Source: Ornithinimicrobium flavum
GTDB lineage: Bacteria; Actinomycetota; Actinomycetes; Actinomycetales; Dermatophilaceae
Assembly: GCF_004526345.1 (NCBI RefSeq)
Contig: NZ_CP038213.1
Location: 1,984,001-2,048,000, forward strand
Length of the DNA stretch: 64,000 nt
Reading direction: 5' to 3'
Each line of letters begins with the position of its first letter. The stretch's first letter is position 1. Position numbers and translations under genes: made by a program. The notes below the pieces were generated by a model, which did not search any database, had not been told where the DNA came from, and saw nothing but the letters and a program-made list of their open reading frames with translations. This document shows, piece by piece, positions 24,559 to 38,538 of the stretch.

Positions 24559-25208
24559 CCCGGGATCATCGCAGCCCGGGTGGCGCGGGAGGCGTCCGGC
24601 TCGCGCGAGGCCCGCCACAGCACGACGAGGAACCAGATGCCCAGGACGATGCCCGCCACGAGAAGGACCACGGCGGGGACGGCCAAGGCCAGGGCGCCAC
24701 CACCCAGGAGCGTCGAGGTCGGGACCGACAGGGTCGTGTCCTCGACCATGAGCACGGCCACCAGGCCGAGCAGGCCCCCGGCCAGGCTGACGGCGGGCAG
24801 CATCCAGCGCAGGACCCGGGCCGGCCCGAGCACCCCGGGGGCGCCGGAGCGGGCGAGCAGGGCCGTGCAGAGGGCGACCACGACCACCGCCTCCAGGACG
24901 GTGTCGGCGAGGCTGGTCCAGGGGCTCTCGACCACCGCCCCTGTGGAGGGGTCCACGTGCCGCAGGAGCAGCCCGACCGTCGACGTGACGACCCCGACGA
25001 GGGCGGCGCCACGGGCCCAGCCGAAACCCTGGTGCAGCGGCACGAGGGACCGGACCCCCGACGCCAGGACGAGGTAGCCGACCGGGTCCAGGAGCACGTC
25101 CAGCCGACCGATGTTCAGGTCGACCGCGACCAGGAGGATCCCGAGGACCACACGCCGCAGCGGAGCGAGCGGTTCCCGGGTCGGCCCGGGCGTCAGGTGG
25201 CGAGTCAT
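24555..25208 (-). CDS. integral membrane protein of unknown function
   Basis: 217 residues, about six hydrophobic segments ([91 protein letters not shown]). I do not recognise a family. The ATG at 25208 has AGGA 7 nt upstream; an in-frame ATG at 25229 lacks one. It is coupled by GTGA overlap to xerD and diverges from the next membrane-protein gene. Confidence 0.65.
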
Positions 25209-25281
25209 GCCCTCATCCTGTCGGGCCATGAGTAGGTGTTGCACGCGGCGGGCCGCCGACCCGTCGGAGAGACTGGCACCC

Positions 25282-25893
25282 ATGCACCTGTATGCCTCCT
25301 CCCCCGCCCGGCGCGCGCGTCAGGTCACCGCCGACCTCCTCGTCCTCGGGTGGGTCGTGGTGTGGGTCCTCGTCGGCCGCTGGGTCTTCGGGCTCGTGAT
25401 GACGCTGGCCGCGCCTGCGGAGCCGCTGCGGGACGCGGGCACCGGCCTCAGCAGCCGGATGCGCGACATCGCCGACCGCATCGCCGGGGTCCCGCTCGTC
25501 GGCGAGGAGCTGGACGCCCCCTTCGTGGGGACGGCCGCGGTCGGGGACGACCTGGTCGCGGCCGGGGACCAGCTCGAGGCTGCCGTCCGCACCGTGGCCT
25601 GGGTCGTGTCGCTGCTGTCCGCGGGCACCCCCGTGCTCCTCGTCCTGCTGCTGTGGCTGCTGGTGCGCGGCACGTGGGTGCGCCGGGCCGCGAGGCTGGG
25701 GCGGGAGGTCGGGGACCGCGGGTCGCAGCAGCTGCTGGCCCTGCGCGCCCTGGTGCGTCAGGACCCGCGGCGGCTGCAGCGGCTCTACCCGGACCCGGTG
25801 GGCGCCTACGCCTCCGGCGACCCCGAGGTATGGCGTGCCCTCGCCGATCTCGAGCTGGCCGAGGTGGGGCTGCGCACCCGTCCCTCGCGATGA
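25282..25893 (+). CDS. two-helix membrane protein of unknown function
   Basis: 203 residues. Membrane helices about residues 18-44 (LLVLGWVVVWVLVGRWVFGL) and about 110-132 (LLSAGTPVLLVLLLWLLVRG), separated by about 60 extracytoplasmic residues with GLSSRMRDIADRIAG. The cytosolic tail is Arg-rich. I know similar proteins only as hypothetical in Micrococcales. It ends 4 nt before the hisIE stop, so the two transcripts collide with no terminator visible. Confidence 0.65.
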   Translation: MHLYASSPARRARQVTADLLVLGWVVVWVLVGRWVFGLVMTLAAPAEPLRDAGTGLSSRMRDIADRIAGVPLVGEELDAPFVGTAAVGDDLVAAGDQLEAAVRTVAWVVSLLSAGTPVLLVLLLWLLVRGTWVRRAARLGREVGDRGSQQLLALRALVRQDPRRLQRLYPDPVGAYASGDPEVWRALADLELAEVGLRTRPSR

Positions 25894-25897
25894 CCCG

Positions 25898-26533
25898 TCA
25901 GCCGTGCCGCTCCCGCAGGACGCGCTCGACGTCCCGCAGACCCAGGCCCCGGGAGCGCAGCAGCACCAGCAGGTGGAAGACGAGGTCCGCCGACTCGCCC
26001 AGGAGGTCCTCGTCGTCCTGGGCGACCGCGGCGAGCGCCGTCTCCACGCCTTCCTCCCCCACCTTCTGGGCGACCTGGCGCACCCCGCCCTCCAGGAGCC
26101 GGGTGGTGTAGGAGCCCTCGGGCCGCTGCTCGTCCCGGTCGCGGACGACCTCGTCCAGCAGCGGCAGGAAGGATCCGCCGAGCGCCTCCGGCCCGAAGCA
26201 CGTCGGGTCACCGGTGTGGCAGGTCGGCCCGGCCGGGACGGCGTGCAGCAGCAGCGTGTCGCGGTCGCAGTCGACCTCCACCGCCCGCACGGCCAGGGTG
26301 TGGCCGCTGCTCTCGCCCTTGGTCCAGCGGGAGGCCCGGGACCGGGACCAGAAGGTCGCCAGCCCGGTGCGCAGGGTGGTGCGCAGCGCGTCCTCGTCGA
26401 GGAAGCCCACCATGAGGACCTGCCCGGTCCGGGCGTCCTGCACGACCCCGGGCACCAGCCCGTCGAGCTTGGCGAAGTCCACGTCACCGACGTCCACGCC
26501 CGCGGGCAGCAGGGGCACGGGAGGGCTCGTCAT
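25898..26533 (-). CDS. hisI: bifunctional PRA-cyclohydrolase / PRA-pyrophosphohydrolase HisIE
   Basis: 211 residues carrying steps 2 and 3 of histidine synthesis in one chain. The N-terminal cyclohydrolase domain (1-115) has [12 protein letters not shown] and the metal-binding [10 protein letters not shown]. The C-terminal pyrophosphohydrolase domain (about 116-211) has [14 protein letters not shown] and [13 protein letters not shown]. In most Actinobacteria these are separate hisI and hisE genes; the fusion is typical of enterobacteria. Last gene of the operon; the ATG overlaps the hisF stop (ATGA). Confidence 0.95.
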
Positions 26534-27320
26534 GCCGGCACCTCCTCGGGGGCGCGGACCTCCAGGCCCGCCGCGGCGAGCGTGCGCTTGAGGTCCGGGA
26601 TGGGGATGTGACCGGAGTGGAAGACGGTGGCGGCCAGGGCCCCGTCCACGTCCGCCTCCCGGAAGACCTCGACGAAGTGCTCGGGCTCCCCCGCCCCGCC
26701 GCTGGCGACCAGGGGCACCGTGCAGACCTCGCGGACGGCCGCCAGCTGCTCGACGTCATAGCCCTGGCGGACCCCGTCCGACCCCATGCAGTTGAGGACG
26801 ATCTCGCCCGCGCCCAGCTCCTGCACCCGCCGCACCCAGTCCAGCGTGCTCACGGGCAGCGCCCGGGTGGCCTCGGGGTCACCGGTGAGTGGCGGATCCG
26901 CCACACCCCGTCCTCGTCGCGCAGGGAGTCGACGCCCACGACGACGCACTGCACGCCGAAGGCGTCGGCGAGCTCCCCCACCAGCTCGGGCCGCTGGGTC
27001 GCCGGGGTGTTGACCGACACCTTGTCGGCGCCGGCGTGGAGCACGTCCCGGGCCGTGGCGACCGACCGGATGCCACCGGCGACGCAGAAGGGGATGTCGA
27101 TCGCCCGGGCGACCCGCTCCACCCAGCCCACGTCCACGCCGCGCCCCTGCGGGCTCGCCGTGATGTCGTAGAAGACCAGCTCGTCCGCGCCCTCGCGGGC
27201 GTACCGGGTGGCCAGCTCGACGATGTCGCCCATGTCGCGGTGGTCGCGGAACCGGGTGCCCTTGACGACCCGGCCCTCACGCACGTCCAGGCAGGGGATG
27301 ATGCGGCGGGCCAGCGTCAT
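26530..27320 (-). CDS. hisF: imidazole glycerol phosphate synthase, cyclase subunit (apparent frameshift)
   Basis: About 263 residues after repair. Seen: [20 protein letters not shown] (catalytic Asp), [34 protein letters not shown] (second catalytic Asp), and after the break [43 protein letters not shown]. One base is missing near 26887. Motifs such as [19 protein letters not shown] and FGVQCVVVG follow E. coli HisF rather than the actinobacterial form (TFLDITASS, VPLTVGGGVR). Partner of HisH. Confidence 0.94.
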
Positions 27321-28111
27321 ACCGCCTCCTCCCGGACCGCGTCGGCGACGGTGAGCCGGCCCTCGAGGATGGCCTTGCCGAGGATGATGCCTCCGCACCC
27401 GGTGCGGCGTGCCGCCCGGACGTCCTCCACCGAGCGCGCACCGCCCGAGGCCTGGATCTCCAGCTCGGGGGCGGACCGGGTGAGCATGGTGTAGAGGTGG
27501 AAGTTGGGGCCGGACAGGGTGCCGTCCCGGCCGATGTCGGTGCAGAGCACGTGCCGCAGACCCGAGCCTTCGTAGGAGTGCAGGGTGGTGATGAGGTCCT
27601 GCTCCCCCACGGACGTCCAGCCCGCCGTGGGCAGCACCCAGGTGCCGTCGGGACCGATGCGCGTGTCGAGCGCGACCGTGATGCGCTCGGGGCCGAACCG
27701 CTCGATCCAGGACCGCACCGTGTGTGGCTCCCGCACCGCCAGGGAGCCGACGACGACCCGGGCCGCCCCCGCCTCCAGCAGCCGGTCGACGTCCTCCTCG
27801 CTGCGGACCCCGCCCCCGGTCTGGACCTGCAGGCCGGTGGCGTCCACGATCGCCCGGAGGGTGTCGTGCAGGGTGTAGCCGCCGGCGCGGGCGGCGTCGA
27901 GGTCCACCAGGTGCAGCCAGGCCGAGCCGCCGCGCGCGTAGTTCTCGGCCACGGCCAGCGGGTTGTCGGTGTAGCGGGTCTCCTGGTCGTAGTCACCCTT
28001 GTGCAGGCGCACGACGGCGCCGCCACGGACGTCGATCGCGGGGTAGACGGTGAACGGTCGGATGGTGTCCACAGGAATCTCTCCGGGTCGGGGGTGGGGG
28101 TCGGGCGTCAT
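27317..28111 (-). CDS. hisA: ProFAR isomerase HisA (enterobacterial type, not PriA)
   Basis: 264 residues, TIM barrel. [20 protein letters not shown] holds the first catalytic Asp, then [35 protein letters not shown] text, and [18 protein letters not shown] with the second Asp. The [16 protein letters not shown] and [10 protein letters not shown] segments are those of E. coli HisA; the actinobacterial dual-substrate PriA has different residues there. The ATG at 28111 overlaps the hisH stop (ATGA, GGAGG upstream); GTG at 28072 also has GGAGA and would remove a 13-residue leader. Confidence 0.93.
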
Positions 28112-28716
28112 CGGTCGACCTCCACCACGAAGTTTCGCAGAAGCCGCGCGCCCAGCGACGCCGACCTCTCCGGGTGGAACTGCGCGCCCCAGCGCAGGCC
28201 GGAGCGGACCACCGCACTCAGGGGTGTGCCGTGGACCGTCGTGGCCAGCGTCGAGGGCCCCACCGGCGCGGCGTAGGAGTGCACGAAGTAGGCCCGCTGG
28301 CCAGGCTCGATCCCGGCCAGCAGCGGGTCGGCCACCAGGTCGGTCAGGGTGTTCCATCCCATGTGCGGCACCCGCACCCCCGGCGCGGCCGGGATGGGGT
28401 CGACCGGGCCGTGGATGAGCCCCAGCGTGTCGACGCCGCCATCCTCCGCCGAGCGGTCGAAGAGCAGCTGCATCCCCAGGCACACCCCGAGCAGCGGGGC
28501 CTGGACCTCGCGCAGGACGTCGGCGAGGCCGAGCTGGTCCAGCCGGGCCATCGCGGCCCGGGCCGCACCCACGCCCGGCAGGATCACCCGGTCCGCGGCG
28601 AGGATGTCCGCCGGGTCGGCCGTCAGGCGGGACGCGGCCCCCAAGCGCTCGAGGGCGTAGCTGACGGACCCGATGTTGGTGCCGCCGGAGTCGACGAGGG
28701 CGACCCGCACGCTCAC
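28108..28716 (-). CDS. hisH: imidazole glycerol phosphate synthase, glutaminase subunit
   Basis: 202 residues, class I glutamine amidotransferase. Catalytic Cys in [12 protein letters not shown], His and Glu in [19 protein letters not shown] and [11 protein letters not shown] resemble the E. coli protein (PHMGWN, YFVHSYAMPV). Delivers ammonia to HisF. The GTG start overlaps the hisB stop as GTGA. Confidence 0.95.
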
Positions 28717-29834
28717 AGGACGCCCTTGGTGGAGGGCAGCTCGGTGGCGTCGCCCTGCCGGGCCAGCGCCATCCGCAGCGCGCGGGCCACGGCCTTGAAG
28801 CCCACCTCGATCTGGTGGTGGGCGTTGCTGCCCTCCACCGACAGGTGCAGGGTGCACCGCAGGGCGTCGGCGAAGGAGCGCCAGAAGTGCTCGACCATCT
28901 CGGTGGAGAAGTCCCCGACGGTGGGCCGGTCGAAGCTGCCCCGGTAGGCGAAGAAGGGCCGTCCGGACAGGTCGATCGCGGCGCTGGCCTGCGCCTCGTC
29001 CATGGGCAGGGTGAAGCCGTAGCGACCGATGCCGCGCTTGTCCCCCAGTGCGGTGCGGATCGCCTCACCCACCGCCAGCGCCACGTCCTCGATCGTGTGG
29101 TGGTCGTCGATGTGCAGGTCCCCCCGGCAGCGCACGGTCATCGCGAAGCCGCCGTGCTTGGCCAGCTGGTCGAGCATGTGGTCGTAGAAGCCGATCCCGG
29201 TGTCCGCGTCCCCGCCGGGCGTCCCGTCCAGGTCGACGTCGACGGTGATCCGGGTCTCGGCCGTGTTCCGCTCCACCGAGGCGACCCGGGGACGGTCCGC
29301 GAGCTCGTGGGCGATCCGGTCCCAGGTCGTCGTCGCGCCGTCGCCGTCGTCGTCGTGGGGGTCGGTCGCGGTCCCGGCGGGGCCCGGGAGCAGGTAGGTC
29401 CGCACCCCCAGGTTGTCGCCGAACTCCCGGTCGGTGGGGCGGTCGCCGACCATGACCGAGCGCTCCCAGTCCACGGACCGGTCCTTGAGGAGGTGGACCA
29501 CCATCCCGATGCCGGGCTTGCGCGTCCACGGCGCGTCCGGGCCGGCGGGGTGCGGGTCGACGAGCACCTCGCGGAAGCGGACCCCCTGGCTGGTGAGGAC
29601 CTGCAGCACCAGCTGGTGGGGGCCGTCGAAGTCCTCCTGGGGAAAGGCCGCGGTGCCGAGGCCGTCCTGGTTGCTGACCATGACCAGGTCGAAGCCCGCG
29701 TCCTGGATGCGCAGCAGGGCGGGGATGACGCCCTCCACGAACCGGACCTTGGACAGGGAGTCGACCTGGAAGTCGTCGGGCTCCTCGATGATCGTGCCGT
29801 CGCGGTCGACGAAGCAGATCGGACGGGTGCTCAT
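28713..29834 (-). CDS. hisB: bifunctional histidinol-phosphatase / IGP dehydratase HisB
   Basis: 373 residues, same architecture and length class as E. coli HisB (355). Residues 1-160 are a HAD phosphatase: nucleophile [32 protein letters not shown] text, [26 protein letters not shown]. The zinc-loop cysteines (CPH...CDC in E. coli) are absent; the segment reads [16 protein letters not shown]. Residues about 180-373 are the dehydratase: [53 protein letters not shown] end. Actinobacterial HisB is normally dehydratase only. Confidence 0.96.
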
Positions 29835-31048
29835 GCGGGGTTCTCCTCGGCGGGGGCTGACGGGTGGGGTACGGGTGTGGCGCCGCGGGCGGGCCCGGAG
29901 GCGGGTCCGGAGGCGGGCCCGGAGGGGGGCGCCGGGGTGCCCTCGGGGGTGGACAGGGCCTGCCGCAGGGCGGCCATCTCCGGCTCGGAGCCGACGGTGA
30001 TGCGCAGGGCGTCCTCCAGGCCCGGGGAGGCGCGGAAGTCCCGCACGGCGATGCCGGCGGCGTCGAGCACCCGGAGCAGCCGCGCCGGGTCGTCGCTGCG
30101 CACGAGGAAGAAGTTGGCCTCCGAGGCGTAGACCGCCCGGACGCCGGGCAGGTCGCGCAGGAACCGGCCGAGCTCGTCGCGCAGCCGCAGGGTCAGGCCC
30201 ACGCGCTGCCGGGTGGCCTCCAGGGCCCGGGGCGCGAGCGCGGCAAGGGCGAGGTCCCGCACCGGGACCGGCACGGGGTATGGCGCCTGCACCCGCCGCA
30301 GCACCGTGGCCAGGTCGGGGTGGGCGAGGGCGAACCCGACCCGTGCCCCGGCGAGGGCGTGCGCCTTGGACAGGGTGCGCAGGACCACGACGTTGGGGTG
30401 CTCCTCGAGCAGGGTGGCGGCCGAGCGCTGGGCGGCGAACTCGCCGTAGGCCTCGTCGACGACGAGCACCGCCTGCCGGGCGACGGCGTCCGCCAGCTCG
30501 GCGAGCTGCGCCAGCGGCACGACGGACCCCGTGGGGTTGCCCGGGGTCGCGACGAAGACGGCCCGAGACCCCGTGCGCAGGGTCGCCTCGGCCATCGCCC
30601 GCGTGTCGACCCGCCAGCGCAGGCCGTCCTCGGCCTGCGGGACGTCGGTGACGGGCACCCCGTGGAGCCGGGCGGACACGGCATACATCCCGAAGGTCGG
30701 GGAGGCGACGACGACCCCGTCCTGCCCGGGCCGGCAGACCGAGCGCACGACGAGCTCGATGAGCTCGTCGCTGCCCCGCCCGACCACCACGCGATCCTCG
30801 GTGGTGGACCACAGGTCCGCGAGGGCGGTGAGCAGCGGTGGTGGCTGGGGGTCCGGGTAGCGGCGGCTCGACCCCTCCGGGTCGGCGCCGCTGGCTCCGG
30901 CGGCCTCGTTGGCGTTGAGCCAGATCCGGGTCGGCGCGGCGGTGGTCGCCGGGGCGGACATCCTGGCCGAGGAGTAGCCGGTGAAGTTCTGCAGGTCGGG
31001 TCGCACCAGGCCGCGGGGGAAGTCCGCCGCGGCCGCGTCGGCCCTCAC
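29831..31048 (-). CDS. hisC: histidinol-phosphate aminotransferase
   Basis: 405 residues, class I/II PLP aminotransferase. [67 protein letters not shown], and the PLP lysine in [23 protein letters not shown] and the THR-LEU-SER-LYS context follow E. coli HisC. The GTG at 31048 overlaps the hisD stop and brings in [14 protein letters not shown], which aligns with the N-terminal arm of E. coli HisC. A C-terminal extension of about 40 residues has SGPA repeats. Confidence 0.93.
29888..29923. repeat. three 12-bp tandem units in hisC 3' end
   Basis: GGCGGG(C/T)CCGGA three times in a row; on the minus strand it encodes [12 protein letters not shown] in the non-conserved tail of HisC. Confidence 0.85.
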
Positions 31049-32355
31049 CAGGGCCCCGGAGCGAGGCGGTCCAGCCGGCGGGTCACGGCACGCTGGTGCG
31101 CGTGCAGCTGCTCGGCCTCGGCCAAGATGACCGCGCACGGCCCGACCTCCTGCAGCCCGGCCGGGGTGGCGCGCTGCACGGTCATCGCGATCTGGAAGGC
31201 CGCGACGTTGACCCCGCCGGTGTAGCGGGCGGCGCCCGCCGTCGGGAGCACGTGGTTGGTCCCCGAGCAGTAGTCGCCGAGCGTCTCCGGCGTGTGGTCG
31301 CCGAGGAAGACCGAGCCGGCGCGGTCCACCCGGTCGATCCAGGCCCGGGGGTCCCGCAGCGCCAGGATGAGGTGCTCGGGCGCGTAGTCGTTGGAGACCT
31401 CCAGGGCGGTCTCCAGGTCGGGGGTGACGATGAGCCGGGAGGCGGCGAGCGCCTTGCGGGCGATCGCGGCGCGCGGGAGGGTCTCCACCTGCTCCTGCAC
31501 CTGCGCGGCGACGGCGTCGGCCAGCGCGGGGCTGTCGGTGAGCAGGATGACCTGGCTGTCGGGGCCGTGCTCGGCCTGGGAGAGCAGGTCGGCGGCGACG
31601 AACTCGGGGTCCGCCCCGGCGTCGGCGACGACCAGCACCTCGGAGGGGCCGGCGGGCAGGTCGATGCCGGGCCCGCCCTCCGCGGTGGACACCTGCCGCT
31701 TGGCCTCGGTGACCCAGGCGTTGCCGGGGCCGAAGATCTTGTCGCAGCGCGGGACGGTCGGCGTCCCGTAGGCCATGGCGGCGACCGCCTGCGCCCCGCC
31801 GACGAGGAAGACCTGGGTGATGCCGCACTCGGCCGCGGCGGCCAGCACGGCCGGGTCGGCCGTGCCGTCGGGACGCGGGGGCGTGCACAGGACGACCTCG
31901 GGGCACCCGGCGAGCTGGGCGGGGACGCCGAGCATGAGCGCGGTCGAAGGCAGCGGGGCCGAGCCCGCGGGCACGTAGAGACCGACGCGGCGGATGGGCC
32001 GCACCACCCGCTCGCACACGACACCGGGGGCCGTCTCCACGGCATACCCCTGCTGCCGGCCCGCCTCGTGGAAGACGCGGATCCGGCCCGCGGCCTCCGT
32101 GATCGCGTCGCGGAGGGCCGGGTCCAGGCCGGCGACGGCGGCGGCCCGGGCGTCGGCGGGGACCTCGATCGTCGCCGGCTCCGCCCCGTCCAGGCGTGCG
32201 GTGAGCTCGCGGAGCGCGTCGTCGCCGCGGGTCCGCACCTCGCGCAGGATCTCCGCCACGCCAGCGGTGACCTCGGGCCCCGCGGCCGCGGTGCCGCGCC
32301 GCAGCGCCTCGGCGCGACCGGCCTCGTCGAGCTCGGTCCAGGTCAGGACGTTCAT
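31045..32355 (-). CDS. hisD: histidinol dehydrogenase
   Basis: 436 residues. Zinc-dependent oxidation of histidinol to histidine, last step of the pathway. [82 protein letters not shown] (zinc/catalytic His), NDYAPEHL and [17 protein letters not shown] overlaps the hisG stop (ATGA). Confidence 0.97.
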
Positions 32356-33257
32356 GCCAGCATCCCCTCGACGGGCAGGACCATGAGGTTGTGCGCGCCG
32401 GCCTGCTTGAGCTGCTCGAGCTTGGCCCAGGACACCGACCCGTGCACCAGCACCTGCACCGAGACCTCCGTGCGGTCGTCCACCTGCAGCACGGTCGGCT
32501 CGTGACCGGCCGGCAGCAGCGGCAGCAGGTCGGTCAGGGTCTCCCGGGCGGCGCGCAGCATGAGCAGACGGGACTCCTTGAGCTGCACCGCCCCGTCCAG
32601 GCGCCGCATCAGCAGGTCGGCGATCTCCTGGCGCCCGTCGTCCAGCGTGGAGTCGGGCCCGGCGATGACCGCCTCGGAGTGCAGGATGGTGGTGACGGGC
32701 CGCAGCTGGTTGGCACGCAGGGTCCCGCCGGTGGAGACCAGGTCGCAGACCACGTCGGCCTGGCCCAGGCGCGGGGCGATCTCGACGGAGCCGTTGAGGA
32801 CCACCGGCTCGGCGCGCACGTCGTGGTCGCGCAGCCAGCGGGTGAGCGTGTGCGGGTAGGAGGTCGCGATCCGCAGCCCGGCCAGCTGCTCGGGGCCGGT
32901 CCACTCCTGCCCCTCGTCGATGGCGACGTCCAGCCGGCAGGTGCCCCAGCCCAGCTGCCGCCACTCGGTCAGCCCGGAGGGGCGGCCCTCCTCCTCCCGG
33001 CCCAGGCTGTGCTCCACGAGGACGTTGCGGCCCACGATGCCGAGGTCGCACACCCCGTCGGCGATGAGGCCGGGGATGTCGTCGTCGCGGACCAGCAGCA
33101 GGTCCACGGGCAGCGACTCGCCGTAGAGGAAGAGCTTGTCCCGGCTCTCACGCCAGGTGAGACCGCAGGAGGCGAGCAGCTCGCGGGCCGGGTCGCCGAG
33201 GCGGCCGGACTTCTGGATGGCCACGCGCAGACGGTCGCGCGGCGCGGGCGGGGTCAT
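32352..33257 (-). CDS. hisG: ATP phosphoribosyltransferase, long form
   Basis: 301 residues, first and feedback-controlled step. [74 protein letters not shown] (PRPP site), and a C-terminal ACT-like regulatory domain (about 228-301) ending [14 protein letters not shown]. These segments read like E. coli HisG ([40 protein letters not shown]). Preceded by a 57-nt gap with GGAAGG before the ATG. Confidence 0.96.
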
Positions 33258-33314
33258 GACGACCTTCCGGACGAGGAGGGAGAAGGGGACCTGTGGCGCG
33301 GCGGGAGCAGGTGG

Positions 33315-33623
33315 CTACCGCCGCGACGGATGGTGCGGGAGCGCCGCGAGGTATCCCCCGGCCCCGCCGTCCAGGCAGCGGGCGATGCGCCCGACGGTGG
33401 TTACGCTGACGCCGGTCACCTCGTGGATGCGACGGTACGGCATCCCGTCGGCGAGCAGCGGCACGACCGACCACCGGTCGGCCAGGGCCTCCACCTCCGC
33501 CGGGGTGCACAGGTCGTCGAGGAAGGCATCCACCTCGGCGGGGTCGTCGAGACCGGCGAGCGTGGCGGCGAGCTCGGCGCGCACGAGCCCGGCCCGCTGC
33601 GCACCACCCTGTCGCTGCTTCAT
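33315..33623 (-). CDS. TrpR-like YerC-family regulator, probable HisR
   Basis: 102 residues. TrpR-superfamily domain: VDAFLDDLCTPAEVEALADRWSVVPLLADGMPYRRI, then the reading helix GVSVTTVGRIARCL. The YerC/YecD family has been proposed as histidine-responsive repressor HisR in Gram-positive bacteria. Directly upstream of hisG on the same strand, with GGAAGGA before the ATG and a 20-bp imperfect palindrome in its promoter. Most likely the first gene of the his operon and its autoregulated repressor with histidine as co-repressor (inference). Confidence 0.82.
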   Translation of the reverse strand: MKQRQGGAQRAGLVRAELAATLAGLDDPAEVDAFLDDLCTPAEVEALADRWSVVPLLADGMPYRRIHEVTGVSVTTVGRIARCLDGGAGGYLAALPHHPSRR

Positions 33624-33661
33624 CCTGGTCCTTCCACGGGAACGCGCCGGCCGTGTGCCAG

Positions 33662-33681
33662 CGCGCTATTACGCTAGCACG
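33662..33681. promoter_or_regulatory. candidate HisR operator
   Basis: CGCGCTATTACGCTAGCACG: half-sites GCTA/TAGC six bases apart, extending to CG-N-GCTA...TAGC-N-CG. It contains a TAGCGT -10 candidate (33676-33671, minus) for the regulator-his operon and lies in the -35 region of the divergent cyclophilin promoter. CTAG-centred half-sites are also used by TrpR. Confidence 0.55.
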
Positions 33682-33696
33682 CCTCCGGGGCGGTCC

Positions 33697-33702
33697 TAGA
33701 AT
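33697..33702 (+). promoter_or_regulatory. -10 box of cyclophilin gene (leaderless)
   Basis: TAGAAT ends 8 nt before the ATG at 33711; no Shine-Dalgarno. Confidence 0.6.
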
Positions 33703-33710
33703 CCTGCGTC

Positions 33711-34415
33711 ATGCGTCGTCCCCTGGTCCCCGCCCTCGCCCTGGCCACCACCCTCGCCCTCGCCGCGTGCGGCAGCGGCTCCCCGATGTTCGGGGCCGAC
33801 GACGCCCCGTCCGCGTCGGGCGACGCGCCGGGGACCGAGGTGGAGTGCGCCGAGCCCCCGGCCCCGCCCTCCTCGCCCCCGCAGTTCTCCCAGGACGACC
33901 TTCCGGCACCGCACCCGGGCGACCCGGCCACTGTGACGGCCACCCTGGGGACGAGCTGCGGCGACATCGTCGTGGAGCTCTTCGCCGACCGGGCCCCGCA
34001 GACCGTGGCGTCCTTCGTCCTCCTGGCCCAGGAGGGCTACTGGGACGACAGCCCCTGCCACCGGCTCACCACCCAGGGGATCTACGTGCTGCAGTGCGGC
34101 GACCCCACCGGGACCGGTCGCGGCAACCCGGGCTACGCCTACGGGATCGAGAACGCCCCGAGCGACGGGATCTACCCGCCGGGCACGCTGGCGATGGCCC
34201 GCACCCAGGACCCGAACAGCAACGGCGGCCAGTTCTTCGTGGTCCACGAGACGACCCAGCTCCCCGTCGACGGAGGCGGCTACAGCATCTTCGGGCAGGT
34301 GACTGAGGGCCTGGACATCGTCGAGGCGGTCGCCGCCCAGGGCGGGCAGGGCGGCACCCCGGACGGGGCCCCCGCCCAGCCGATCAGCATCCTCACGGTG
34401 GACGTCGAGGACTGA
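33711..34415 (+). CDS. cyclophilin-type peptidyl-prolyl isomerase, lipoprotein
   Basis: 234 residues. Lipoprotein signal peptide with lipobox LALAAC (Cys near residue 20), then a Pro/Ser-rich linker and the cyclophilin domain from about residue 75: [31 protein letters not shown] text, [28 protein letters not shown] and [17 protein letters not shown]. It would fold proteins outside the membrane. Actinobacteria commonly carry this gene next to rel and hisS (Rv2580-Rv2583). Some active-site residues differ from human cyclophilin A, as is usual in this group. Confidence 0.9.
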
Positions 34416-34421
34416 CGCCGC

Positions 34422-35825
34422 TCAGACCTGGGGCTGGGCCAGCTCGACCCGCAGGGCGGAGACCACCTCGGCCCGCGGGACGGTGAACTGGTCCTGCCGG
34501 CACAGGTCCTTGATGGTGACCGTGTCGTCCGACACCTCCTGCTCGCCGAGCAGGGCGACGAACCGGATGCCGGCGCGGTCGGCATACCGGAGCTGCTTGC
34601 CGAGCTTGCCCCCGTCGAGGACGGCCTCGGTGTTGATGCCGCCGTGGCGCAGCTGGGAGGCGAGGGCCAGCTGCTGGTCCAGCAGGTCGGCATCCAGCTG
34701 GGGGACGAGGACCTGGACGGTCGACCGGCCGCTGGACTCCTCGAGCAGGCCCGCCTCCCGCAGCTGCCAGAAGAGCCGGGAGAGGCCGATCGAGATCCCC
34801 ACGCCGGGGAGCCGGGACCGGGTGTACTGCCCCGCGAGGTTGTCGGCGGCCGCCGGAGCAGATGGAGCCGATCTCCGGGTGCTCGTCCAGGGTTGTCTCG
34901 TAGACCGTGCCGGTGTAGTAGTCCAGCCCGCGGGCGATCGAGAAGTTGAGGCAGTAGTCGGCCTCGGGGACGCCCATCGCCCGGACCAGGGTCAGCACCT
35001 CCCGCAGCTCGGACACGCCGGTGGCCAGGGCCGGGCTGCCGGCCGACCCCGCCTCCACCTCGGCCAACCGGGCCAGGGCGTCGTCGTGGCCGCGGGACCG
35101 GACCTGGACGAAGGCGAGGATCCGCTCGACGACCTCCTGGGCGAGGTCGAAGCCGGGGCCGGTGAGGGTCTCGGTGAGGTAGGCCGGTCCCCGCTTGTCC
35201 AGCTTGTCCACCTCGCGCAGGACGGCGGCCTGGGAGTCAGGGTCGGTGATGCCCAGGTCATCGTAGAAACCCCGGAGCAGCTTGCGGTTGTTGATCTGGA
35301 TGGTGAAGGGGCCGATGGCCAGGTCGGTGAAGATGCTGTGGATGATCGCCGGCGCCTCGGCGTCGTGCCGCACGGAGAGCTCGTCCTTGCCGATGATGTC
35401 CACGTCGCACTGGTAGAACTCGCGGAACCGGCCCCGCTGCGGGCGCTCGCCGCGGTAGACGCGCTGCATCTGGTAGCGGCGGAAGGGGAAGGTGAGCTGG
35501 TGCTCGTGCTCGGCCACGTAGCGCGCCAGGGGGACGGTGAGGTCGAACCGGAGGGCGAGCTCGGGGAGCGTCCCTCCTCCCCCGCGGCCTGCCCCTCCCG
35601 CGTCTTCTCCAGGGCCCCGGTCGACTGCACGAAGTAGACCTGACGTTCGGTCTCCCCGCCGGTCTTGGTCAGCAGCACGTCGGAGCGCTCGAAGACGGGG
35701 GTCTCCACGGGCAGGAAGCCGAACCGCTCATAGCCGGCACGGATCTGGTCGAGCATCCGCTGGAAGGCCACCTGGTCGGGCGGCAGCAGCTCGAGGACGC
35801 CGGAAGGGGTGCGGGGGGTGATCAC
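34422..35825 (-). CDS. hisS: histidyl-tRNA synthetase (two apparent frameshifts)
   Basis: About 468 residues after repair. Class II motifs: the N-terminal [18 protein letters not shown] and VFERSDVL; motif 2 [25 protein letters not shown]; histidine loops [13 protein letters not shown] and CSGGR; C-terminal anticodon domain [10 protein letters not shown] to [11 protein letters not shown]. The frame breaks near 35571 (one base, joining GEEG to [18 protein letters not shown]) and at 34845/34846 (two bases, restoring the GGRYDNL motif). GTG start with a -10 box 6 nt upstream. Confidence 0.93.
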
Positions 35826-35831
35826 CGGGCG

Positions 35832-35837
35832 AGTCTA
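35832..35837 (-). promoter_or_regulatory. hisS: -10 box of hisS (leaderless)
   Basis: TAGACT ends 6 nt before the GTG at 35825. Confidence 0.55.
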
Positions 35838-35863
35838 CCGAGGCGGGTATGCCGCTCCGGGCC

Positions 35864-36562
35864 TCAGCCGGCGACGTCGAGCAGGTAGGGGTTGGTCGCC
35901 CGCTCGCGGGCGATCGTGGTGGCCGGCCCGTGGCCGGGCAGGACCAGGGTGGGGTCGGGCTGGGTCAGGACGACCTCGCGCAGGGAGCGCTGCATCGCCG
36001 CCGGGTCCCCGCCGGGCAGGTCGGTGCGTCCGATCGAGCCGGCGAAGAGCACGTCACCGGACAGCACGGTGCGCTCGAGCTCGTCGGTCGGGATGCCCTG
36101 CGGCACCCCCGCCAGCGAGAACAGGACCGAGCCCTCCGTGTGGCCCGGGGCGTGGGCCACCTCGATGCTGAGCCCCGCGATCCGCAGCACCTCCCGGTCG
36201 ACGATCTCGACGACCTCCTCCGGCTCGGTCCAGGTCGCCCTCCGGCCGAACTGCTGCTCGAGCGCGGGCAGCAGACCCGGCCCGAGGCTGGCCAGCGGGT
36301 CGACCAGGCGGTAGCGGTCGTCGGTGTGGATGTGCGCGGCCACGGTGCCGGCGCAGACCGGGGTGACGGCATATACGTGGTCGAGGTGACCGTGGGTGAG
36401 CAGGACCGCGGCGGGCCGCAGCCGGTGCTCGCGGAGGATCTCCTGCACCCGCCCCTCCACCCCGATGCCGGGGTCGACGATGATGCACTCCTCCCCCTCG
36501 GCGGGCGCCACGACGTAGCAGTTGGTCCCGAAGGCGTCGGCCACGACGCTGCGCACGAACAT
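35864..36562 (-). CDS. metallo-beta-lactamase-fold hydrolase (glyoxalase II-like)
   Basis: 232 residues. Metal-binding HGHLDH near residue 58, the further His in APGHTEGSVLF and Asp in LSGDVLFAGSIGRTDLPGGD, final GHGP. Resembles GloB/YcbL hydroxyacylglutathione hydrolase-like enzymes; in a mycothiol organism the thioester substrate is unknown. Same position as Rv2581c beside hisS. ATG with a -10 box 6 nt upstream. Confidence 0.9.
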   Translation of the reverse strand: MFVRSVVADAFGTNCYVVAPAEGEECIIVDPGIGVEGRVQEILREHRLRPAAVLLTHGHLDHVYAVTPVCAGTVAAHIHTDDRYRLVDPLASLGPGLLPALEQQFGRRATWTEPEEVVEIVDREVLRIAGLSIEVAHAPGHTEGSVLFSLAGVPQGIPTDELERTVLSGDVLFAGSIGRTDLPGGDPAAMQRSLREVVLTQPDPTLVLPGHGPATTIARERATNPYLLDVAG

Positions 36563-36568
36563 GCTGCG

Positions 36569-36574
36569 AGGTTA
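36569..36574 (-). promoter_or_regulatory. -10 box of metallo-hydrolase gene (leaderless)
   Basis: TAACCT ends 6 nt before the ATG at 36562. Confidence 0.5.
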
Positions 36575-36603
36575 TCCCTGCGGGCGGCAGGGGGGTCGTT
36601 AGG

Positions 36604-36609
36604 TAGGGT
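36604..36609 (+). promoter_or_regulatory. -10 box for DUF349 gene
   Basis: TAGGGT, 15 nt before an in-frame ATG at 36625 and about 73 nt before the GTG at 36682. Confidence 0.4.
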
Positions 36610-36681
36610 CGGACCACCCACGCCATGTCGTGCACGACCCCGATGGTCGCGCGCGCGGTCCTCACAGATAGGCCACCACCA

Positions 36682-38538
36682 GTGTCCGAGCAGACCCACC
36701 AGCCCGAGCAGGTCCCCGAGTCGGACCCGACCCCCGCGGTCGAGGCGCCGACGACGGAGACGCCCGACAGCGACGTGCCCGTGAGCGAGGACACCGGGGC
36801 GGAGGTCTCCGAGCCCGAGTCGGCCGGGGAGTCCGAGCCCGAGACGGTCGAGGCCTCCGAGGTCTCCGAGCCCGAGACGGCCGAGGCCTCCGAGCCCGAG
36901 ACGGCCGGGGAGTCCGAAGCCACCGAGCCCGAGGCTGCCGAGCCTGAGGCTGCCGAGCCCGAGGCCGCCGAGCCCGACGCTGCCGAGGTCTCTGCGGACG
37001 CTACGACCCAGGACGGCCCAGTCGAGGCACCCGTGGAGGAGGCGCCCCCGGGTGCCGAGGTCCCCGCCGAGGAGACGCCGGCCGAGCCGGACGCGCCCTC
37101 TCCCGCCCCCGCGCAGGACGCGCCGGTGGCACCGCGGCCCGCTCCCCCGACGCCGGCGATGTTCGCCGCGCGTCGGCCGGCGGCACCCCGCCCCGCACCC
37201 GCCGTCCCCGCGGCCTCCGGGGCCGACTCCGGTGCCGCCGACGTGGAGAGCGGGGCCACCAGCCAGCTGCCCCCTACGCCCTCCACCCCCAGCGAGTCGA
37301 TGAAGCACGGCCGTGTCGGGGACGACGGCACCGTCTACGTCGTCGCCGCCGACGGATCGGAGAGAGCGGTCGGCTCCTACCCCGACGCCACGCCGGAGGA
37401 GGCCCTGGCCTACTTCGCCCGCAAGTACGACGAGCTCGCCGCCGCCGCGGACCTGCTACGCGCCCGGCTCGCCGGCACGGAGGTCAGCGCGCACGACGCC
37501 CGCCAGTCCCTGGCGCACCTGAAGGAGCAGATCGGGGACGCCCACGTGGTGGGCGACCTGGCCGCCCTGGAGGCCGTGGTGGGCCACCTGGAGGAGGCCG
37601 TGGCCACCAAGGCCGCCCAGGAGGCCGAGCTGCGGGCCGCCGCCAAGGCGAAGGCGGCCGTGGAGCGCGAGGCGATCGTGGCCGAGGCCGAGCAGCTGGC
37701 GGCGACCGACCCGGCCCGGATGCAGTGGAAGCAGAGCAGCAGCAGGGTGCGGGAGCTGCTGGACGAGTGGAAGTCCCACCAGCGCTCAGGCCCCCGCCTG
37801 GACAAGGACGTCGAGGGCGCCCTGTGGCAGCGCTTCAGCGGGGCCCGGTCGAGCTTCGACAAGGCCCGCAAGGCCTGGTTCGCCCAGCTCGACGACCAGC
37901 ACGCCGAGGCCCGGAGGGCCAAGGAGAAGCTCGTCGCCGAGGCCGAGGCGCTCGCCTCCAGCAAGGACTGGGGGCCCACCGCGAGCGCCTTCAAGCGCCT
38001 CATGCAGGACTGGAAGCGGGCCGGTCGGGCCGCCCGGGCCGACGACGACGCGCTGTGGTCCCGGTTCAAGGCGGCCCAGGACTCCTTCTTCAACGCCAAG
38101 GACGAGGTGGTGGCCGCCGAGGAGGCGGAGTACGCCGAGAACCTCAAGGTCAAGGAGGCGCTGCTCGCGGAGGCGGAGGCGATCACGGTGGACCTGGCCC
38201 ACCTGGACCAGGCCAAGGAGCAGCTGCGGCGCATCCAGGACCGGTGGGACGCCGCGGGCAAGGTGCCGCGGGCCGACATCCATCGGGTCGAGGGGCGTCT
38301 GCGCGCCGTCGAGCAGGCCGTGCGGGACCTGGAGGAGTCCCAGTGGAAGCGATCGGACCCCGAGCTGACCGCCCGCGCTCGGTCGATGGTCGACCAGCTC
38401 GAGCGGCAGGTCCAGGGTCTGGAGTCCGACCTGGCGGCCGCCCGCGCCGCCGGTGACGAGCGACGTGTCGCCGGCATCGAGACCGAGCTGGCCACGAAGA
38501 AGGTGTGGCTGGAGTCCGCCCGCGGCGGACTCGGCTGA
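36682..38538 (+). CDS. DUF349 repeat protein with acidic repetitive N-terminus
   Basis: 618 residues from the GTG at 36682; an in-frame ATG at 36625 would add 19. Residues 1-205 are low-complexity: ETAEASEPE-type and PEAAE repeats, then Pro/Ala-rich. From about 210 there is a short conserved strand (GRVGDDGTVYVVAADGSERAVG) and then helical DUF349 repeats, each with a W-x-x-x-G/S core: WKQSSSRVRELLDEWKSHQ, WGPTASAFKRLMQDWKRAGR, RIQDRWDAAGKVPR. The function is unknown; the long coiled-coil structure suggests a scaffold. Confidence 0.85.
   Translation: MSEQTHQPEQVPESDPTPAVEAPTTETPDSDVPVSEDTGAEVSEPESAGESEPETVEASEVSEPETAEASEPETAGESEATEPEAAEPEAAEPEAAEPDAAEVSADATTQDGPVEAPVEEAPPGAEVPAEETPAEPDAPSPAPAQDAPVAPRPAPPTPAMFAARRPAAPRPAPAVPAASGADSGAADVESGATSQLPPTPSTPSESMKHGRVGDDGTVYVVAADGSERAVGSYPDATPEEALAYFARKYDELAAAADLLRARLAGTEVSAHDARQSLAHLKEQIGDAHVVGDLAALEAVVGHLEEAVATKAAQEAELRAAAKAKAAVEREAIVAEAEQLAATDPARMQWKQSSSRVRELLDEWKSHQRSGPRLDKDVEGALWQRFSGARSSFDKARKAWFAQLDDQHAEARRAKEKLVAEAEALASSKDWGPTASAFKRLMQDWKRAGRAARADDDALWSRFKAAQDSFFNAKDEVVAAEEAEYAENLKVKEALLAEAEAITVDLAHLDQAKEQLRRIQDRWDAAGKVPRADIHRVEGRLRAVEQAVRDLEESQWKRSDPELTARARSMVDQLERQVQGLESDLAAARAAGDERRVAGIETELATKKVWLESARGGLG
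36928..36987 (+). repeat. four 15-bp tandem units encoding PEAAE
   Basis: CCCGAGGCTGCCGAG and three near-copies in a row (one unit has GAC, giving PDAAE). Part of a longer Glu-rich repetitive stretch at about 36800-36987. Confidence 0.9.

Follow-up and report, generated by a model that had tools for sequence, protein, structure and literature searches.

A Lysobacterales-type histidine operon acquired with its own repressor gene is the likely cause of PriA specialisation in Ornithinimicrobium and Kytococcus

Corynebacterium is said to have evolved the PriA variant SubHisA after gaining a whole trp operon, a case reportedly described by Noda-Garcia and colleagues in 2013. Operons for histidine synthesis move between lineages as well: according to the portion of Fani et al. 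2007 (PMC1963479) cited here, a his operon of the hisNB type moved from gammaproteobacteria to Campylobacter and to bacteria of the Cytophaga-Flavobacterium-Bacteroides group, and HisNB stood at 0% among 36 His+ Actinobacteria. Such operons may carry their own regulator. The sections of Ashniev et al. 2022 (PMC9413887) used here place hisR at the head of the his operon in most Proteobacteria that have it, Xanthomonadales included, describe the HisR site as a 20-bp palindrome, and report actinobacterial HisR, under a different motif, solely in Coriobacteriales and Eggerthellales; the main text of that paper makes no mention of Ornithinimicrobium. Finally, a 2026 study (PMC13055916) describes in its main text SubTrpF2, a PriA with TrpF activity only, from Ornithinimicrobiaceae in which HisA and PriA occur together. 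There the HisA of O. murale complements only a hisA mutant and its PriA only a trpF mutant, TrpF is missing from all Ornithinimicrobiaceae genomes searched, and the priA neighbourhood is said, to the knowledge of that study, to be unreported before. Kytococcus is absent from that main text, and the word "horizontal" appears in it twice only, for other lineages and in a reference title. Here we analyse the histidine operon of Ornithinimicrobium flavum within a stretch of 64,000 nucleotides (contig NZ_CP038213.1, positions 1,984,001 to 2,048,000), referred to below as the window.

What left Ornithinimicrobium with two enzymes of the HisA/PriA family? We propose that a Lysobacterales-type unit was acquired once, that the native his genes were lost, and that PriA was left as a TrpF-only enzyme, and we hold it highly probable that this explains the locus as a whole. 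Below, "the genus" means Ornithinimicrobium together with Serinicoccus and Ornithinicoccus, and the Kytococcus-like genus is g132 (genomes G460 and G461); NCBI separates Ornithinimicrobiaceae from Kytococcaceae, whereas the genome classification used here holds them in one family, f1. "Native" refers to relatives from the other genera of this family. The operon lies on the minus strand, from 33257 down to 25898, in the order G-D-C-B-H-A-F-IE, with genes assigned by curated models:

33655..33680, minus strand: predicted HisR operator, GTGCTAGCGTAATAGCGCGCTGGCAC; best matrix site in the window and sole match to the extended pattern in the genome
33315..33623, minus strand: hisR, gene for a TrpR-family (YerC/YecD) repressor (TIGR02531, 55 bits, cut-off 42.2; PF01371, 76.1 bits)
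32352..33257, minus strand: hisG, ATP phosphoribosyltransferase with C-terminal domain (TIGR00070, 160 bits; TIGR03455, 60.3 bits)
31045..32355, minus strand: hisD, histidinol dehydrogenase (TIGR00069, 518.2 bits)
29831..31048, minus strand: hisC, histidinol-phosphate transaminase (TIGR01141, 295 bits, cut-off 276.55)
28713..29834, minus strand: hisB, fused histidinol-phosphatase and imidazoleglycerol-phosphate (IGP) dehydratase (NF003937, 502.5 bits, cut-off 443; TIGR01261, 184.5 bits)
28108..28716, minus strand: hisH, IGP synthase glutaminase subunit (TIGR01855, 196 bits)
27317..28111, minus strand: hisA, phosphoribosyl-formimino-aminoimidazole carboxamide ribotide (ProFAR) isomerase of the HisA, not the PriA, type (TIGR00007, 236.7 bits, cut-off 228.95; tree)
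26530..27320, minus strand: hisF, IGP synthase cyclase subunit, with a frame change near 26890 (TIGR00735 positions 1-136 and 155-254, in two pieces)
25898..26533, minus strand: hisIE, fused phosphoribosyl-AMP cyclohydrolase and phosphoribosyl-ATP diphosphatase (NF002747, 242.6 bits, cut-off 187)

The order, strand and coordinates are those given by the initial annotation of this DNA, which had also seen 4-nt overlaps at every junction; open reading frame (ORF) ends and sequence bear this out at all seven (ATGA or GTGA), the hisH-hisA overlap holding only with the longest hisA start. The two fusions that it described, of HisB with a phosphatase and of HisI with HisE, are likewise borne out by models scoring above their cut-offs, and its assignment of the operon protein to the HisA type agrees with a score of 169.2 bits against the PriA model, below the cut-off of 306.45. 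Both the gene order with its fusions and the position of hisR, directly 5' of hisG, are those of the Lysobacterales-type operon hisR-hisGDC[NB]HAF[IE]. The guanine-plus-cytosine content of the operon, 74.8%, is close to the 73.5% of the window and fits the amelioration to the host that had been suggested. A search for an RNA attenuator or T-box before the operon found no Rfam family at E ≤1 across 25000-36700, barring one chance match below its gathering score. We also note that the C-terminus of HisC (window 29834-29950) forms a proline-, serine- and glycine-rich tail with a short repeated motif.

The protein sequences point to the source of the unit. In all eight proteins, mean identity to Ornithinimicrobium falls from Lysobacterales (47-70%) through other gammaproteobacteria (37-62%) and Bacteroidota (34-48%) to the natives (30-46%). 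From Bacteroidota to natives the drop is slight for two proteins: HisC goes from 33.6 to 33.3 and HisA from 35.7 to 35.2, the native identity of HisA having been computed against native PriA (35%). A tree of the eight proteins joined (2339 columns, Bacteroidota outgroup; 38 rows, being those of the 52 non-native rows that have all eight proteins) places Ornithinimicrobium and Kytococcus together, with support of 100, within the Lysobacterales, which themselves lie within the gammaproteobacterial rows. Holding the Lysobacterales as a clade of their own is 107 log units worse and is rejected by the approximately unbiased (AU) test (p-AU 6.8e-5). For the trees, the native rows came from 19 of 21 loci (L215 and L224 left out), the genus was represented by choice with 10-11 rows per tree out of the 18 fetched loci plus one Serinicoccus (nine fetched, L036 and the window), and short rows were removed beforehand, leaving HisIE with one native row. 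The horizontal transfer that the initial annotation had proposed is supported by this tree, by the emptied native site and by the single copies of HisG and IGP dehydratase described below. Its description of the proteins as E. coli-like proved too narrow: they are closer to Lysobacterales, and an enterobacterial donor is ruled out by the identities and the tree, which favour Lysobacterales, and by the E. coli locus, in which no hisR was seen.

The TrpR-family gene hisR and its operator, both missed by the initial annotation, belong to the transferred unit. Among 127,962 window positions on both strands, a matrix built from ten non-actinobacterial operators, chosen by eye among palindromes, scores best (16.6 bits) at the palindrome immediately 5' of hisR; shifted registers of the same palindrome reach 2.6 bits and the best place elsewhere in the window -3.8, and none of 2000 shuffles of the hisR upstream region attains the operator score. 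With at most three mismatches allowed, the extended pattern has a single occurrence in the 3.71-Mb genome, at hisR. All 22 actinobacterial loci examined, comprising two Kytococcus-like ones and 20 from the genus (that of the window among them), have the motif 5' of hisR; in 21 the score was matched by none of 300 shuffles, and in the remaining locus by one of 300. Likewise, hisR occupies the same position, at 56-71% identity, in seven of eight Lysobacterales loci, the contig of the eighth starting within hisD. When the best 80 of at least 599 HisB-similar loci were compared, 12 carried hisR at E 1e-5: one Serinicoccus, seven Lysobacterales, two gammaproteobacterial metagenome-assembled genomes, one Woeseiaceae and one Planctomycetaceae metagenome-assembled genome. 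At the same threshold no hisR was seen in the E. coli, Vibrionaceae, Shewanella or Bacteroidota loci, some of which are clipped by contig ends. As in the HisR regulons of PMC9413887, hisR comes first and its operator is palindromic; unlike the actinobacterial cases in the sections cited, the motif in Ornithinimicrobium is of the proteobacterial type, deviating at three positions from the consensus printed there. HisR is likely a local, histidine-dependent repressor of the operon that acts through the predicted operator.

The fused operon is a property of two whole genera. At its curated cut-off, the HisB phosphatase-domain model TIGR01261, our probe for distribution, matches 33 of 186 genomes of the family, namely all 31 of the genus and both of the Kytococcus-like genus, and has no match above cut-off in the other 153. 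In a sample of 396 genomes from the order, two exceed the same cut-off, both from the source genus, and in a phylum-wide sample of 396 the source genome alone does; at any strength (E 0.001) the model matches 85 of the 186 family genomes, the 33 included. An IGP dehydratase domain shares the open frame of the HisB phosphatase in 33 of 33 genomes, and the 31 genomes of the genus encode HisA, HisF and a third diverged member of that group, those of G504 being fragmentary and the hisF of the source genome being in two pieces. In the 20 regions fetched (18 genus, two Kytococcus-like), hisR, hisG, D, C, B, H, A, F and IE matches follow one another in that order, with hisC in two pieces in L184 and hisD partial in L186. 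The named proteins among the 120 best HisB matches are mostly from Ornithinimicrobium, Serinicoccus and Ornithinicoccus, next from Kytococcus and next from Lysobacter; among the matches listed, the Kytococcus proteins are as long as a fused HisB, and the name bifunctional histidinol-phosphatase/dehydratase is carried by three of the four. Presence across all 33 genomes rules out a recent strain-specific transfer, and on the best reading the native operon was displaced before the genus diversified and probably before its split from the Kytococcus-like genus. The initial annotation had considered that fusions widespread and ancestral in the family would speak against transfer; they do span the whole genus and a second one, a spread that leaves the foreign origin standing. 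The reverse direction or vertical descent, with the fused operon old in these actinobacteria and taken up by Lysobacterales, gains some room from single-gene tests that leave the position of the natives open. We give it very little credence against the absence of above-threshold HisB phosphatase domains from 153 of 153 other family genomes, the nesting of Ornithinimicrobium and Kytococcus in the Lysobacterales and of these in the gammaproteobacterial rows, and an operator of the proteobacterial kind as described in the sections of PMC9413887 cited. Two side observations concern other labels among the matches: a HisF labelled Aestuariimicrobium (P0182) is 81% identical to the N part in the window, which may mean that the same operon also entered a different actinobacterial genus, and HisB proteins labelled Tolypothrix (P0097; 62% identity to the window's HisB) and Acidobacteria bacterium (P0011; 82%) likely come from mislabelled or contaminated assemblies.

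What remains of the native pathway? In 21 of 21 native regions, hisD, hisC, hisB, hisH and priA are collinear on one strand over about 9 kb, with a hisH-priA gap of some 2-3.5 kb in L215, L219 and L225. The gene sseB stands beside priA in all 21, orfX near the hisB-hisH border in 17, and glnE 5' of hisD in 13, the other eight showing no glnE within the stretch fetched. Compared with this arrangement in relatives, glnA-glnE-hisD-hisC-hisB-orfX-hisH-priA-sseB, the source genome and 18 of 18 genus regions read glnA-glnE-orfX-priA-sseB, and both Kytococcus-like regions read glnA-glnE-priA-sseB, orfX being undetected. The native operon site is recognisable and is emptied of hisD, hisC, hisB and hisH. 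The gene orfX (L005:9512-10141, minus strand), beside priA in Ornithinimicrobium, is conserved and has no Pfam or NCBIfam match at E 0.01. A second native site shows a similar absence: hisE adjoins hisG in nine of nine native loci inspected (19 native hisG loci entered the trees), with ribH alongside in six, and no hisE or hisG lies alongside ribH in nine of nine genomes examined (seven of the genus, two Kytococcus-like). HisG is single-copy in all 31 genomes tested (nine of the genus, two Kytococcus-like, 20 native); in the source genome HisG and IGP dehydratase each give a single match, and a second gene for either was not found there.

With the exception of two genes, then, a genome-wide search for native remnants agrees with the initial proposal that the pathway was replaced as a unit: the transfer, the emptied hisDCBH site and the single HisG and IGP dehydratase accord with it, and the retention of priA and of a HisN-like gene does not. 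The latter (G000:C1:2674829-2675596, L303) scores 203 bits against a cut-off of 275, compared with 266-292 bits in eight native relatives, 189-256 in five other members of the genus and at most 137 in the second genus. It is possibly under relaxed constraint or used otherwise, though the fused HisB supplies a phosphatase; its persistence rules out a clean replacement of the phosphatase in Ornithinimicrobium.

The source genome keeps a diverged priA, unseen by the initial annotation, outside the operon, has HisA within it and lacks TrpF, which is the gene content of SubTrpF2; the TrpF model PF00697 finds no match in the source genome and detects TrpF in 14 of 14 control genomes. Because a genome without trpF must still have PriA perform the TrpF step, priA could not be lost. 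The catalytic Asp11, Asp130 and Asp175, and the position that we take to be Arg143, are kept in all PriA rows, those of Ornithinimicrobium and Kytococcus as well as the native ones. The equivalents of Trp145, Arg85, Thr105 and Thr170 (M. tuberculosis numbering, after PMC13055916, with positions placed by motif) are altered in 21 of 21 Ornithinimicrobium and Kytococcus PriA proteins (19 and two, respectively) and kept in 19 of 19 native ones. In the source genome, the positions of Arg85, Thr105, Trp145 and Thr170 hold A, A, T and A, the kind of substitution that marks SubTrpF2, and loop 1 is 5-7 residues shorter in the 18 Ornithinimicrobium and two Kytococcus rows measured. The main text of PMC13055916 also lists Arg19-to-Gln among the SubTrpF2 changes; position 19 is Gln in 21 of 21 Ornithinimicrobium and Kytococcus rows and in 19 of 19 native rows, and since native rows carry it too, Gln19 does not distinguish specialised from native PriA. 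From these residues and the gene content we infer that the PriA of the source genome is a TrpF-only enzyme.

The present locus shares with SubTrpF2 the family, the pairing of HisA with PriA, the absence of TrpF and the altered positions, and the Kytococcus-like genus shows the same arrangement of HisA and PriA. The difference lies in the origin. The text of PMC13055916 states, from its PriA/HisA tree, that hisA underwent a lineage-specific duplication; on this account HisA and the TrpF-only PriA stem from one gene doubled within the family, and the rest of the operon is native. In our tree of HisA and PriA (88 rows; bootstrap unsettled), however, the HisA proteins of Ornithinimicrobium and Kytococcus fall among the Lysobacterales and their PriA proteins group with native PriA at 100/100. 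Holding the HisA and PriA of the two genera as one clade costs 107 log units and is rejected (p-AU 2.4e-5). Moreover, PriA sits in the native priA position, adjoining sseB, and hisR as well as the remaining proteins of the operon indicate Lysobacterales. We thus regard the duplication as most improbable. In our reading HisA is foreign, and the priA neighbourhood is what is left of the native his site. It seems to us likely that the ancestor of Ornithinimicrobiaceae and Kytococcus received one complete, self-regulated unit, that this emptied the native locus and made PriA TrpF-only, and that it is so the true cause of SubTrpF2.

We propose the following course of events. The ancestor of the genus and of the Kytococcus-like genus would have gained operator, hisR and hisGDC[NB]HAF[IE] together from a bacterium of Lysobacterales (Xanthomonadales) type, and in both genera the unit sits not far downstream of hisS. 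Histidine synthesis by the foreign operon would follow the standard route; HisR most likely silences the operon at the single operator, histidine being the likely co-repressor. Its presence would have made the native his genes redundant; the glnE-sseB interval would then have lost hisD, hisC, hisB and hisH, and hisE and hisG would have gone as well. PriA, freed of the HisA step, would have lost its ProFAR-binding residues and become a TrpF-only enzyme.

Several observations weigh against this course or leave it less sharply drawn. Uniting the HisA of the two genera with all PriA is not rejected (p-AU 0.06). When the natives are held together with Ornithinimicrobium and Kytococcus, single-gene AU tests do not reject the grouping for HisG (0.18), HisH (0.31), HisB (0.72), HisD (0.32) or HisC (0.62), HisF (0.02) giving the sole rejection among six proteins, and the constrained tree of HisB, like that of HisC, even had the higher likelihood. 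The native rows stand on long branches, so that these tests chiefly ask where a distant outgroup attaches, and we put the five non-rejections down to the long native branch, a cause that is still in the data. The concatenated tree nests the proteins with Lysobacterales, and the case for such an origin is argued from the joined tree, identities, synteny and hisR taken together, the single-gene tests alone not settling it. The donor can be placed at the level of type, apparently Lysobacterales (Stenotrophomonas, Lysobacter). Of the three native genomes whose ribH site was inspected, two have hisE-hisG alongside and G438 does not; because one native genome also lacks the pair there, the ribH site is weak evidence alone.

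The relation of the two genera is a further difficulty. Kytococcus-like PriA nests within Ornithinimicrobium PriA (98/85), the operon tree sets the genera side by side, and the GlnE and GlnA trees, being unrooted, are uninformative on their sisterhood. Could each genus have taken the operon, or one have received it from the other, after their split? The nesting of PriA would suit such a history, as would the HisG, HisH and HisF trees, in which a clade of Ornithinimicrobium and Kytococcus is unresolved, and the several proteins for which Kytococcus is hardly nearer to Ornithinimicrobium than Lysobacterales are (for HisD, no nearer). We nevertheless consider two transfers unlikely: the concatenated tree joins the genera with support of 100, 17 of 18 genus regions and two of two Kytococcus regions have hisS within a few kb upstream in the same orientation, and both genera vacated the same native site and share the losses of PriA residues. 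We retain a single acquisition.

The operon had also been called complete. All eight genes are present, but hisF is split over two frames in the assembly, which the initial annotation missed, and in this one respect the locus departs from a Lysobacterales-type operon with every gene intact. Its N part lies in ORF 26850-27320 and its C part, in another frame, in ORF 26530-26949; near 26890 the window is one base short relative to 21 of 21 aligned relatives, all of which are in frame. The stop of the first piece overlaps a GTG of the second frame (GTGA, 26851-26854) in a manner resembling the operon junctions, probably by chance. This resemblance is what would favour a hisF truly split into two half-barrel pieces, the second starting at that GTG. 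Such a split is scarcely plausible, for the aligned relatives keep the frame at the break, hisF is one unbroken match in 29 of the 31 genus genomes, the only exception apart from the source genome being G504, a 74%-complete assembly in many fragments, and hisS in the same window (34425-35834) is broken twice, its matches to two relatives' proteins (L188 and L177) being spread over three frame pieces. A third hisS comparison protein (L183), taken in a poor frame, gave weak scattered pieces only. Since hisS is expected to be indispensable and yet is also broken, assembly indels are the likely cause of both breaks; the hisF break is probably an assembly error, and we therefore take hisF to be functional in the organism. 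In another genome of the family (G034:C1:1878543-1879249) hisF is likewise found in two pieces.

Transfer of a whole his operon is already known in kind. As in the case described in the cited portion of PMC1963479, a complete hisGDC[NB]HAF[IE] crosses phyla; unlike there, the recipient is actinobacterial, hisR and its operator are included, and a native enzyme of dual function is left behind. In the open-access literature (titles and abstract openings among the matches listed, subscription papers lying outside), we found no report that this operon was transferred into Ornithinimicrobium or Kytococcus. The passages of PMC5516325 cited here report no HisN in Kytococcus and suggest another phosphatase; the fused Kytococcus HisB offers an answer to this puzzle. 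Turning to the enzyme, the parallel with Corynebacterium is that PriA is relieved of one of its two jobs by a pathway operon gained through transfer. The two cases are mirror images, PriA reportedly keeping the HisA activity there and, we propose, TrpF here.

Finally, his operons are known to cross phyla and PriA is a model for enzymes losing one of two jobs; the present locus joins both. It points to a likely cause of a known enzyme specialisation, one that contradicts the duplication by which the published PriA specialisation was explained. The 31 genomes of one genus and two of another provide replicate lineages for following the effects of relaxed selection on a single activity. Furthermore, a repressor and operator travelling with the enzymes may help explain why these bacteria retained a foreign operon.

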